NCBI GenBank assembly: GCA_039182125.1
Contig: JBCDCH010000015.1
Span: forward strand, 1 to 64,000
Source: Planctomycetota bacterium
Lineage (GTDB): Bacteria > Planctomycetota > Phycisphaerae > Tepidisphaerales > Tepidisphaeraceae
DNA length: 64,000 bases
Reading direction: 5' to 3'
Shown here piece by piece: positions 31,434 to 44,990 of the stretch (position 1 is its first letter; each line of letters begins with the position of its first letter). The translations under genes were made by a program, and so were the position numbers. The notes beneath the pieces are model-generated. The model had not been told where the DNA came from and searched no databases. It saw only the letters and a list, made by a program, of their open reading frames with translations.

Positions 31434-31871
31434 TTACGCCGCTTCTTCGAGCATCTGCGTGAACGCGCGGATGCCGAGTTCGTTGATCGTGGTCGGCTCG
31501 CCGTTCTCACTGAGCTTGTTGCGCATGGCGAGCAGCGTTAGGTCGGCGGCCATCTCCTTGGGCACGCGGATGGTCAGGTGCTTGATGCCCTTGCCGGTGG
31601 AAACGTCGAAGTCTACGTTGCGGCTGACGTTGGCGGCGTTGGACTTCTTCGACTTCGCCTTGGCGGGTTTCTCGGCTTTGGGCTTGGGTGTTTCAGCCAC
31701 TTCACGCTTCACCGGCTCGGGTTTGGGCTCCGGCTTGGCTTCAACTTTCGGCTCGGGTTTTGGCTCGGCCTTCACCGCCGGGTCCACGCCCAGGCGCTTG
31801 AGCGCATCGGGCGTCGCATCGGCACCGCGGCGCAGGCTGGCGAGCATCTTGTCGGCTGTCGTTTGTTTCAC
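31434..31871 (-). CDS. Ribbon-helix-helix partner of ParA (partition-like)
   Basis: A 145-aa protein from GTG 31871, chosen because GGAG lies seven bases upstream. A short N-terminal region (TADKMLASLRRGADATPDALKRL) is followed by a Lys/Pro/Glu-rich linker (KPEPKVEAKPEPKPEP) and a C-terminal segment with ribbon-helix-helix character (KHLTIRVPKEMAADLTLLAMRNKL...TINELGIRAFTQML). Position 70 bases after parA and the RHH fold resemble ParG/CopG-type centromere-binding proteins of type Ib partition systems. It could bind the repeats upstream of parA. Homology is by pattern only. Confidence 0.65.
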   Translation of the reverse strand: MKQTTADKMLASLRRGADATPDALKRLGVDPAVKAEPKPEPKVEAKPEPKPEPVKREVAETPKPKAEKPAKAKSKKSNAANVSRNVDFDVSTGKGIKHLTIRVPKEMAADLTLLAMRNKLSENGEPTTINELGIRAFTQMLEEAA

Positions 31872-31941: not shown

Positions 31942-32628
31942 TCACGCCGCTTCCTTCAAACTCGCCAACGTCACGCCCGGCTCCGCCGGCGTCATGACCT
32001 CGGCGATCAGTTTCTCCATCTCCTCCGACGCCTGCTTGGCGGACTTGAGCCGTGACATCCGTGTCACGACCGTGTCTTCCGTGCAGGCTCGCGCGAATGC
32101 ATCACGCAGGCCCAACGTTTGGCGGGCGACCGGGATCTCCAATCCCTTGAGCACCGCGATCACCGCCTTGCTCAACTCCGTTTGAGCGCGGACGCGGTTG
32201 ATCACCAGACGCACCTCGGCGCGGGACACGCCGTCCTCCTCGCGGGCCGCCTGCACGAGGTCGAGCTGTTGCTTGGCCTGGAGCGTGGCACGCAGGTCGA
32301 CGGTGCTGGGCGTGACGGGGATGAGGATCGAGTCGGCCATGTACATCAGCACGCGGGTCGTGTCGTTGAGCCGGGGGGGTGCGTCGCAGATGACCGCGTC
32401 GAACGTGCTGTCGAGCTGGGTCAGGGCGGCGTGGACCTCCTCGCCGTCGTCGGGCGAGAGCACCGGCATGTCCGGGGCGGCCCCGGCGAGCCAAAGCTTG
32501 GCCGACTGTTGCGGGTCGGCGTCGGCGAACGCGACCCGCTTGCCCTGGTCGGCGAGCCAGCACGCAAGGTGCACCGCGAGCGTCGTCTTGCCCGCTCCGC
32601 CCTTCTGGTTCACAACGGCGATGATCAT
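31942..32628 (-). CDS. parA: ParA-family partition ATPase
   Basis: A 228-aa ParA/ParF-type ATPase from ATG 32628. The deviant Walker A is KGGAGKTT (9-16), Walker A' is DADPQQSAKLW, and Walker B is AVICDAPPRLND. There is no N-terminal DNA-binding helix-turn-helix, so it belongs to the short type Ib class that uses a separate RHH partner for centromere binding and autoregulation. The RHH-like gene follows on the same strand. A cluster of 12-bp inverted repeats lies 98-160 bases upstream. It may segregate a chromosome region, a protein complex, or be a plasmid remnant. Confidence 0.9.
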   Translation of the reverse strand: MIIAVVNQKGGAGKTTLAVHLACWLADQGKRVAFADADPQQSAKLWLAGAAPDMPVLSPDDGEEVHAALTQLDSTFDAVICDAPPRLNDTTRVLMYMADSILIPVTPSTVDLRATLQAKQQLDLVQAAREEDGVSRAEVRLVINRVRAQTELSKAVIAVLKGLEIPVARQTLGLRDAFARACTEDTVVTRMSRLKSAKQASEEMEKLIAEVMTPAEPGVTLASLKEAA

Positions 32629-32725
32629 GGAACTACCTATCGGCGATCCGCCGCCGAACACGCCAGCGAAAGTCGTCACAATCTTCCGCCCCGTCGAGCG
32701 GTCAAGCGGCGCGTAACGGCGTGTA

Positions 32726-32789
32726 GTCATGCAGTCAAACAGCCAAGTCGTTATGTGTGACTGCATGACGTCATGACTGCGCGCAGTCA
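32726..32789. promoter_or_regulatory. Repeat cluster upstream of parA (candidate operator/centromere)
   Basis: GTCATGCAGTCA (32726-32737) and its exact reverse complement TGACTGCATGAC (32758-32769) are separated by 20 bases. They are followed directly by GTCATGACTGC and CGCAGTCA, giving four copies of the heptamer GCAGTCA (orientations +, -, -, +) in 64 bases. The location between parA and the divergent esterase, next to an RHH protein gene, fits a ParG/ParR-type operator-centromere. Confidence 0.65.
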
Positions 32790-32863
32790 CGACGGCGGAT
32801 TGTCACGGCGTAGGTCATTCGGGGTGGCGTGCGGGGTCGGCTTTGGTGCACAATGCAACCGTG

Positions 32864-33511
32864 ATGGAGGATCCGCACGCAGACATCGAGGTGTTCACCG
32901 CCAACGCCGATCCGTCGAAAAGCAATGCACCGGTCCGGGCGGCGATCGTGGTACTCCACGGTCGAGGCGGCAGTGCACGCGACCTGCTCACCCTCACCCC
33001 CCAACTGCTCGACGGCCTCCCCGATGCACACGACGTTGCCGTGCTGGCACCGCAGGCTCACGACTACACGTGGTACCCGCACGGCTTCATGAAGCCCCGC
33101 GAGCAGAACGAGCCGTGGGCGACCTCGGCGTTGGCGGCGGTGGATCGGCTGCTCGCGAACTTGACGGTCGAGCGCACGGTGCTGCTCGGGTTTTCACAGG
33201 GGGCGTGCTTGGCGTGTGAGTACGCGGCGACCAGGCCGCGCCGGTACGCCGGGGTGGTCGCTTTCACCGGCGGGCTCATCGGCGAAACTCTTACGCCCTA
33301 CACCGGCGATCTTGCGGGCACCCCGGTGCTACTCACCACCGGCGATCCGGATCCGCATGTGCCGTTTAACCGGGTGGAAGTGACCGCCGAGGTGCTGCGC
33401 GACCTGACCGCCGACATGCAAGTGGAGCGTTATCCCGGCAAGCCGCACAGCATCAGTCGCGACGAGCTGCGCCTCGCCGCGGAGTTGATCGGCAGTGTGC
33501 TACACCCGTGA
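32864..33511 (+). CDS. Alpha/beta-hydrolase, phospholipase/carboxylesterase family
   Basis: A 215-aa serine hydrolase from ATG 32864 (GTG 32861 is possible). Features: VVLHGRGGSARDLL (oxyanion region), the nucleophile elbow GFSQGACLA, GDPDPHVPF with the acid Asp, and the catalytic His in YPGKPHSISRDEL. These match the YpfH/Est-like carboxylesterase group that also contains acyl-protein thioesterases. No signal peptide. Its 3' end overlaps the convergent rhamnosidase gene by 12 bases. Confidence 0.88.
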   Translation: MEDPHADIEVFTANADPSKSNAPVRAAIVVLHGRGGSARDLLTLTPQLLDGLPDAHDVAVLAPQAHDYTWYPHGFMKPREQNEPWATSALAAVDRLLANLTVERTVLLGFSQGACLACEYAATRPRRYAGVVAFTGGLIGETLTPYTGDLAGTPVLLTTGDPDPHVPFNRVEVTAEVLRDLTADMQVERYPGKPHSISRDELRLAAELIGSVLHP

Positions 33512-43938: not shown

Positions 43939-44862
43939 ATGGCGGATACGTTCAACAAACCCAGCCGGGCGCGGGGGCATCGGTCCTACCGCATGGAGGA
44001 TTTCGGTTGGTTCCGTGTCGCCGAGCGGGTGCCGGGGTTGCCGGTGCCGTACTACGTCGGTCGTGGCATCGCCACCAACGCCAGCTACAACGTCGTCGAT
44101 GTTCCCCAGCTCGACATGCCGGGCCATGTCGTGCTCAAAGTTGCACTTTCGGCCGGCGGGGCGTGGAGCCCGGAACTGGCCGGCCCGCGCCGACCCCTCC
44201 GCCCCGGCGATGCGACCTTCCGGCTTGTCCAGGATGGCGACGGCTTCTGGGAGGGCTACCACCCCAGCCATCGCGGCGAATACCACTTCCTCGGCTTCAT
44301 CTTCCGCGGCGAGGCCGCCCTTGCCTCGGCGCTCGGCATCATGGAAACCTACGGCCACGTTTTTTCGATCGGCACCGAGTCGCTCATCGTCAAACGTTTG
44401 CTCAAGCTCGCCGACCGGGACGATCACGTCGTCGACGTCTCCGCCGGTCAGGCGGCCCGGCTCGTCAGCGATGTCCTGCTCACGCTTGTCGATGTCTCCG
44501 AGAAGGCCGAGCGCGACGGCGGGGTTAACGATCTGGCCGAGGCGGTCGAGGTGATGATCCGCGATGATCTGCGCCGTTCGTGGACGGTGGCCGAGTTGGC
44601 CGAGCGGAACGACGTGAGCCGCGAACACCTCACTCGCATTTTCACCCGCCGGTTCGGCGTTCCGCCGCATCGCTACCTCGTCGAGATGCGCGTCCAGGAA
44701 GCCCGCAAACGCCTGCGCACCACCGACGATCCGATCAAACAGATCATGCTCGATCTCGGCTTCGCCAGTCACGCGGCGTTTGTCAGAGTGTTCCGCCGCT
44801 ACACACACATGTCGCCGACGGAGTACCGGGACGCGATCCAGCACAGCGACAGCCATAAGTAA
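43939..44862 (+). CDS. AraC-family transcriptional regulator
   Basis: A 307-aa regulator from ATG 43939, with GGAGG seven bases upstream. A cupin-like sensor half is followed by two helix-turn-helix motifs at the C-terminus (WTVAELAERNDVSREHLTRIFTRRFGVPPHRYLVEMRVQEARKRL; IKQIMLDLGFASHAAFVRVFRRYTHMSPTEYRD). Its start lies 177 bases from the divergent ctaA. No obvious sugar-metabolism target adjoins it, so the regulon is unknown. Confidence 0.9.
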   Translation: MADTFNKPSRARGHRSYRMEDFGWFRVAERVPGLPVPYYVGRGIATNASYNVVDVPQLDMPGHVVLKVALSAGGAWSPELAGPRRPLRPGDATFRLVQDGDGFWEGYHPSHRGEYHFLGFIFRGEAALASALGIMETYGHVFSIGTESLIVKRLLKLADRDDHVVDVSAGQAARLVSDVLLTLVDVSEKAERDGGVNDLAEAVEVMIRDDLRRSWTVAELAERNDVSREHLTRIFTRRFGVPPHRYLVEMRVQEARKRLRTTDDPIKQIMLDLGFASHAAFVRVFRRYTHMSPTEYRDAIQHSDSHK

Positions 44863-44867
44863 AACCC

Positions 44868-44969
44868 GAATGACGAGTTCCCGAATGACGAATGAATGAC
44901 CAATGACGAAATCCGAACCTTCGTCATTCGGCCTTCGGATTTCATTCGTCATTCGGGAACTCGTCATTC
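44868..44969. repeat. Perfect 29-bp inverted repeat with nested repeats (REP-E)
   Basis: Arms at 44868-44896 and 44941-44969 are perfect reverse complements. The element is built from reiterated (GA)ATGACGA/TCGTCATTC units, and an inner GACGAAATCCGAA...TTCGGATTTCATTCGTC also pairs. It fills nearly all the gap between the AraC gene and mfd. It is AT-richer than its surroundings and would fold into a long hairpin. Confidence 0.9.
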
Positions 44970-44990
44970 GTCATTTCCTACCGTCTGACA

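Follow-up and report, generated by a model that had tools for sequence, protein, structure and literature searches.

A 4-bp phase upstream of parA

The stretch analysed here (the window), comprising the first 64,000 nucleotides of contig JBCDCH010000015.1 from a Planctomycetota bacterium, carries on its minus strand a parA gene (31942-32628) for a ParF-like Walker ATPase of 228 amino acids that begins MIIAVVNQKGGAGKTT and lacks an N-terminal DNA-binding domain, followed on the same strand by a gene (31434-31871) for a 145-amino-acid partner that is a putative ribbon-helix-helix (RHH) protein. In the gap between parA and an esterase gene (Abhydrolase_2) at 32864 on its opposite side lies the subject of this report, an array of short repeats at 32711-32798. 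The layout recurs, spelled differently, in front of parA genes that are orthologues, paralogues or sisters of this one, and it accompanies a downstream RHH gene.

Throughout 32711-32798 the dinucleotide at every fourth step is GC, GA or TC, with 15 such cores in 22 tetrads, and the four GCAGTCA heptamers of the site share a common 4-base-pair (bp) phase with these cores. The part nearest the esterase, block A (32759-32798, minus strand), consists of ten successive tetrads whose final two bases are GC, GA or TC, reading in the parA orientation CCGC CGTC GTGA CTGC GCGC AGTC ATGA CGTC ATGC AGTC. Its segment score of 17.7 bits is the highest in the window (the next is 14.9) and was reached in none of 5000 shuffles of the upstream 250 bp. 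The tetrad print-out continues with an in-phase spacer of 20 bp, a multiple of 4, made up of five coreless tetrads (32739-32758, minus strand), and then with block B (32711-32738, minus strand), TTGA CTGC ATGA ctac ACGC cgtt ACGC, in which five of seven tetrads have a core.

We also used a rule-free statistic, namely the dependence of base composition on position modulo P in 80-bp windows. Tested for period 4 only, the array scores 58.5, a value reached by none of 1000 shuffles; extra 8-bp structure adds nothing to the 4-bp phase (p 0.15), and there is no 7-bp signal, the period-7 score being 25 versus a control 99th percentile of 50.2.

The words from which the array is composed had drawn attention to the site in a first-pass annotation, and all of them lie at the positions it gave. 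The 12-mer GTCATGCAGTCA is present on the plus strand at 32726-32737 (containing a heptamer at 32731-32737) and as its exact complement on the minus strand at 32758-32769 (heptamer 32758-32764), with 20 bases between, and the heptamers begin at 32731 (+), 32758 (-), 32774 (-) and 32783 (+), the last two within the palindrome TGACTGCGCGCAGTCA (32774-32789), which occurs nowhere else in the genome. In the 4,128,073-base genome (131 contigs) a search for further copies of the 12-mer returned only these two, both at the parA array, so the word is not scattered; TGACTGCNNGCAGTCA has a single occurrence, upstream of the window parA, and the heptamer totals 8 copies in the window. Clusters of at least four copies of one 7-mer within 64 bp are limited in the window to the parA-upstream cluster and one overlapping cluster near 44870, and none arose in 20 dinucleotide shuffles. 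The second of these (44860-44980) consists of clustered CGAATGACGA-like repeats and, after them, the same repeats in inverted orientation (TCATTCGTCATTCGG...), which together make up an inverted repeat that is long and imperfect.

The description built on these words needed revision in other respects. The array is wider than the 32726-32789 first assigned to it, and its organising principle is the 4-bp phase rather than 12-bp inverted pairs. Nor is it housed in the only AT-richer gap: the GC content is 60.9% in the gap (56.8% in the array) versus 65.0% in the window, and 1437 of 12753 windows of the same size (235 bp) are equally AT-rich.

The phase at related parA loci

Self-repeats above those of shuffled sequence (at most 1 in 60 shuffles reaching the observed value) were found in 31 of 51 class-level parA upstream regions versus 17 of 242 upstream regions taken elsewhere in these loci, yet the repetitive regions have no words in common between loci. 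What they share is the period. At P=4, 39 of the 51 loci score above all 256 control upstream regions and, likewise in 39 of 51, the upstream maximum lies above every far window; four more rise over the control 99th percentile, and do so at P=8 alone. Nothing comparable is seen in this set at periods 3, 5, 7 and 9, and subharmonic rises are seen at period 2 (many loci) and period 6 (one locus). The background maximum, from 87,131 windows more than 1.5 kb from parA, is 43.9. In the four-type loci (39), 765 of the 817 spacings between direct 7-mer repeats are divisible by 4, versus 17 of 64 in loci that lack an RHH gene, and adding 8-bp structure improves the fit at p<0.05 in only 7 of the 39 four-type loci (median p 0.44) and at p<0.01 in all four eight-type loci.

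Across the 28 strong arrays, 87.8% of 1660 tetrads have a GC, GA or TC core, a code that is strand-symmetric, and the remaining two bases are mostly variable. Pairs of GA then TC at 4 bp, the symmetry of tandem met boxes, are not enriched in these arrays; with no such pairing preference between adjacent cores, each core seems to be read separately.

No GCAGTCA heptamer precedes the three closest orthologues or a paralogue in the same genome (loci L061-L064, which also lack the 12-mer), but each of the four has an array of the same phase composed of other words. Period-4 scores are 48.1, 71.8 and 43.6 for the orthologues (G018:C128, G018:C2 and G013:C32, respectively), each reached by none of 1000 shuffles, and 65.5 for the paralogue on contig C76, above all 1000 of its shuffles. 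The expectation that the array would recur upstream of orthologous parA genes thus holds for the phase and fails for the words. The missing heptamer, considered as a refutation of the array, was ruled out as such by the phase-based test.

As the period-4 code was found on the same 51 loci that were first used for scoring, a separate check set of 50 distinct regions outside the discovery set was assembled after removal of identical upstream regions, and 49 of the 50 pass the period-4 test; this set was obtained via a sister ParA subgroup and not the window's own four-member clade. An unbiased scan for KMNN repeats (at most two mismatches) gave matches in 43 of 397 class genomes, with the reversed control also positive in several. 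Among the 30 loci it returned, ten have a ParA Walker motif and the other 20, mostly simple repeats, do not; the scan had no match in the window's own genome and so did not reach the window array. Given the control matches and the mostly non-ParA loci, the pattern alone is not specific. One locus, L119 (G239:C18), has tandem GAACTCAA 8-bp repeats, with ACTC each 8 bp, reminiscent of the TP228 boxes, and no ParA Walker motif within about 1.5 kb.

As a yardstick we scored 15 plasmid ParA loci, 13 of which have a small partner (ParG-annotated or unannotated). Among the 13, six have a period-8 score over the control 99th percentile, and three also have a period-4 score slightly over the control maximum; judged by the period statistic, the 8-bp class is therefore not clean. 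Cyanobacterial plasmid loci blur the distinction between 4 and 8 bp: four of six, with T-V-D strands in their partners, score 41-53 at period 4 and 64-78 at period 8, values obtained on 350 bp with finer steps and not strictly comparable with the others.

Arrays and RHH partners occur together

A profile search placed an RHH partner downstream of parA in 43 of the 51 loci, 42 of which also have an array with a 4- or 8-bp phase. The exception, L086 (the same locus as L163), has an array split by an insertion inside it that by eye carries a transposase-like open reading frame: the 68-bit array of L163 (CP054190.1) is found at -1148 to -958, and CTAG stands on either side of the insertion. None of seven RHH-less parA loci, which form one clade in the tree, has an array. 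At the remaining locus, L070, the array is present and the sequence ends ahead of the partner gene. The profile seeds included the window and other tested sequences, which makes recognition of the positives partly a matter of construction; this does not apply to the absence in the seven RHH-less loci. The L163 insertion, spanning -958 to 0 before the parA start, is a natural separation of an array from its gene.

The predicted DNA-contacting strand of the partner varies with the array. In nearly all four-type loci listed it has the motif T/S/Y-x-R, with K or Q in a few, including K instead of R (by eye) in the partner of a further cassette of the window's own genome on contig C50; all four eight-type loci have T-x-D.

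ParA, its partner and neighbouring genes

The Walker motif of the window ParA lies at the extreme N-terminus, and the protein matches Pfam AAA_31 and CbiA; against the NCBIfam model ParA_partition (NF041546) it scores 164.8 bits, under the cut-off of 180. Its nearest solved relative is TP228 ParF (4dzz, 4.6e-14, covering most of ParA), and in the tree it falls in a supported clade with orthologues located at other chromosomal places, surrounded there by housekeeping-like genes (TatD-, RecX- and HisF-like; labels by eye). The partner has a KPEPK-rich disordered tail followed by a C-terminal strand, HLTIRV, and two helices. In its AlphaFold model the strand spans residues 99-102 and the helices 105-121 and 129-144, with a predicted local distance difference test score (pLDDT) of about 80 at the C-terminus and about 50-60 for residues 21-100, and a predicted template modelling score of 0.27. 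It matches the partner of orthologue L061 at 38% (E 6e-8). The tail contains arginines; an arginine finger is a trait of the disordered N-terminal tails of type Ib centromere-binding proteins, and none was assigned here. Compared by sequence with solved structures, the RHH proteins gave chance matches only, and the top structural match of both modelled partners is the Met repressor, weakly (Z 2.6 for the window partner and 4.0 for the other).

The neighbours, rsmG, a LysE-type transporter gene and a glycosidase gene, are chromosomal-looking. The sole match to PF02195 (ParB_N) in the genome (G000:C13:4251) is on another contig with two parS-like sites beside it, which makes the ParA-RHH unit an additional cassette.

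Comparison with known partition systems

Type Ib partition loci, as described in PMC5016525, have repeat arrays upstream of the operon that serve as both operator and centromere, and their partition proteins bind the upstream repeats, repress the operon and activate ParA via a flexible tail (PMC5016525, PMC7308502 and PMC9499535). At our locus we find a Walker ParA within the type Ib size range of about 200-230 amino acids and without an N-terminal helix-turn-helix (HTH), an adjacent small protein that is RHH in the model and, by sequence, direct and inverted repeats upstream of the par operon.

The parFGH system of TP228 is the nearest comparison. It supplies the closest solved ParA relative, has a small RHH partner just downstream as here and carries an upstream array that acts as centromere and operator (PMC7308502 and PMC5016525). 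It differs in that the tetramer boxes of parH recur every 8 bp with AT-rich spacers, whereas the window array has no AT spacers; in that the strand is T-x-D (RLTID) in six ParG-annotated plasmid partners and T-x-R in the window partner; and in that the TP228-type ParAs lie on the opposite side of a 98/90 branch from the window ParA. The delta/omega/parS system of pSM19035 likewise has an RHH protein on contiguous short direct and inverted repeats overlapping promoters, and requires at least four contiguous repeats for ParA activation (PMC9499535). Its unit is the 7-bp heptad WATCACW, unlike the window array with its lack of a 7-bp signal. Canonical chromosomal ParABS resembles our locus in having a Walker ParA on a chromosome and differs in its partner, which here is not a ParB. 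The first-pass annotation had likened the site to arrays bound by ParG/ParR-type proteins: the ParG/omega comparison fits a Walker ParA, whereas ParR belongs to type II ParMRC systems, whose motor is the actin-like ParM.

The RHH protein MetJ (the Met repressor) binds 8-bp boxes arranged in tandem, and these met boxes (AGACGTCT) set GA and TC 4 bp apart. This spacing matches the code described here, and GACGTC is present in the window array; MetJ differs in being a metabolic repressor with a corepressor and not a partition protein, and the structural match (Z above) is weak.

A 4-bp pitch, as opposed to 8-bp boxes or 7-bp heptads, is apparently undescribed. A full-text literature search returned neither a 4-bp-phased partition array nor a planctomycete RHH-type ParA cassette, a result that is not proof of absence given that subscription papers were mostly outside its reach.

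Proposed function and alternative explanations

Taken together, the sequence data suggest that the site is probably the operator and centromere-like cis array of a self-contained type Ib (ParFG/delta-omega-like) ParA-RHH cassette. The dual role had already been proposed in the first-pass annotation, and the type Ib anatomy, the ParF-like ParA, the strand-helix-helix partner and the upstream array lend it partial support; its wording in terms of inverted pairs is not supported. Mechanistically, RHH dimers would line the array next to one another, each dimer occupying 8 bp with two cores, and T-x-R of the strand would read the core dinucleotides with their G; the met-box spacing of GA and TC would explain how one dimer per 8 bp yields a 4-bp pitch. 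Such a protein coat would repress parA-RHH transcription, and the disordered RHH tail would recruit ParA-ATP and stimulate its ATPase, so that the array-bearing DNA might be moved or tethered as a result. Given the chromosomal-looking neighbours, the cargo could be the chromosomal region, or the cassette could be a remnant kept as an autoregulated unit.

Several observations count against this assignment. The window array is short and interrupted by its five-tetrad gap, compared with arrays of 200-340 bp in sister cassettes, and on that ground may be an operator only. A scan of 32600-32900 detected no terminator and no sigma-70-like promoter. The score of the G013 orthologue, while the top of its locus, is not above the background maximum. 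The sister loci come from one ParA subgroup, and related loci are non-independent. Finally, no Pfam or NCBIfam family was accepted for the partner, whose identification as an RHH protein derives from a moderate-confidence model together with a profile containing its own sequence.

In an alternative reading the RHH protein would bind the array to autoregulate parA-RHH, and the cassette would have no role in segregation, the locus being a domesticated or decaying chromosomal partition unit. We consider this somewhat unlikely. The shortness and interruption of the array fit it, as do the chromosomal-looking neighbours with no adjacent replication gene and the presence, at another place in the genome, of a canonical ParB accompanied by parS-like sites; set against these, parA and the RHH gene are both intact in the window, the ParA belongs to its supported clade with orthologues elsewhere on chromosomes, and the sister arrays are longer than an operator requires. 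The model originally put forward, with heptamer half-sites in 12-bp inverted pairs, an RHH tetramer per pair and no array-wide phase, accounts for the exact 12-mer complement pair that is unique in the genome. It has become very improbable, in that the cores of blocks A and B fall in one 4-bp phase even outside the heptamers, the period-only test was matched by none of 1000 shuffles and the orthologues retain the phase but not the heptamer. Neutral tetranucleotide-repeat expansion, or some other functionless product of 4-bp slippage, would also give spacings in multiples of 4, and these genomes do contain simple tandem tracts of 4 and 8 bp at other places; yet two of the four positions are constrained while the other two vary, and the arrays stand upstream of RHH-linked parA genes and not of RHH-less ones, which makes such an origin exceedingly improbable.

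Beyond the assignment to a type Ib operator and centromere, a more tentative proposal, which we hold to be possible though short of likely, is that these loci represent a distinct centromere class: a 4-bp 'tetrad' array in which two of four bases would be read on either strand, RHH subunits could coat any 4-bp register with no spacers, and words would diverge freely between cassettes with pitch and core kept. If true, a 4-bp pitch with a two-base core, seen in Planctomycetota from Phycisphaerales to Gemmataceae, would change the minimal centromere unit, and it offers a simple route to such sites, which would be searched for by phase and not by motif. The tie between a T-x-R or T-x-D strand and array pitch would constitute a testable protein-DNA code, and the cassettes could supply partition parts for genetic tools, of which Planctomycetota has few.

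Distribution and sister cassettes

A scan of GTDB representatives with the sister ParA alignment yielded 70 loci, mostly in Planctomycetota, spanning Phycisphaerales, Pirellulales, Isosphaeraceae (Tautonia sociabilis, which we take to belong to this family) and Gemmataceae (Gemmata sp. IIL30 and, on a complete chromosome, Limnoglobus roseus). The period-4 test was passed by 65 of the 67 loci with sufficient upstream sequence, three of the 70 having too little. A few loci are filed under other names (Cyanobacteria, Bacteroidales, Dehalococcoidia, Synechococcus, Niabella), and most of these non-planctomycete records may be binning errors. Of 392 genomes drawn from the phylum, eight, including that of the window, have such a ParA at E 1e-30. 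Searching genome contigs with the window ParA gave 88 stretches that fit the pattern, none confirmed as a relative; viral contigs scanned with the sister ParA alignment contained no relative, and PLSDB plasmids had no match to the sister RHH protein at E 0.01.

Several sister cassettes lie near genes for plasmid replication proteins (RepL-like, RPA, RepA_C), which suggests that many are plasmid-derived or integrated. Several cassettes of this kind can occur together in one planctomycete genome, both on chromosomes and next to replication genes of plasmid type. In the window's own genome we saw three ParA cassettes: that of the window (C15), the paralogue on C76 with words GGTGTCTGG, and the cassette on C50 (G000:C50, L111) with words CGTCATGA, a period-4 score of 60.9 and a partner that is RHH-like by eye. 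GTCATG words are common to the C15 and C50 arrays, making cross-talk between the two possible.

The N-terminus of sister RHH partners, MAERRSLTEGL..., resembles that of an HTH-type ParB from a Nostoc plasmid (MTKSRQSLTQGL...), and this likeness, noted at L162 (6691-6740) and L155 (2132-2190), perhaps reflects a shared ParA-docking peptide. Short inverted repeats lie just outside the arrays of six loci (L102, L103, L107, L108, L109 and L110), about 150-300 bp upstream of parA, with the form CCTTAGC..GCTAAGG and/or TTTCACCGTGAAA-like, beside both 4- and 8-bp arrays. Many sister arrays (L074-L110) stay in phase up to the ATG, which falls in a tetrad ATGA, with no obvious ribosome-binding site, and leaderless transcripts are possible in these cassettes.
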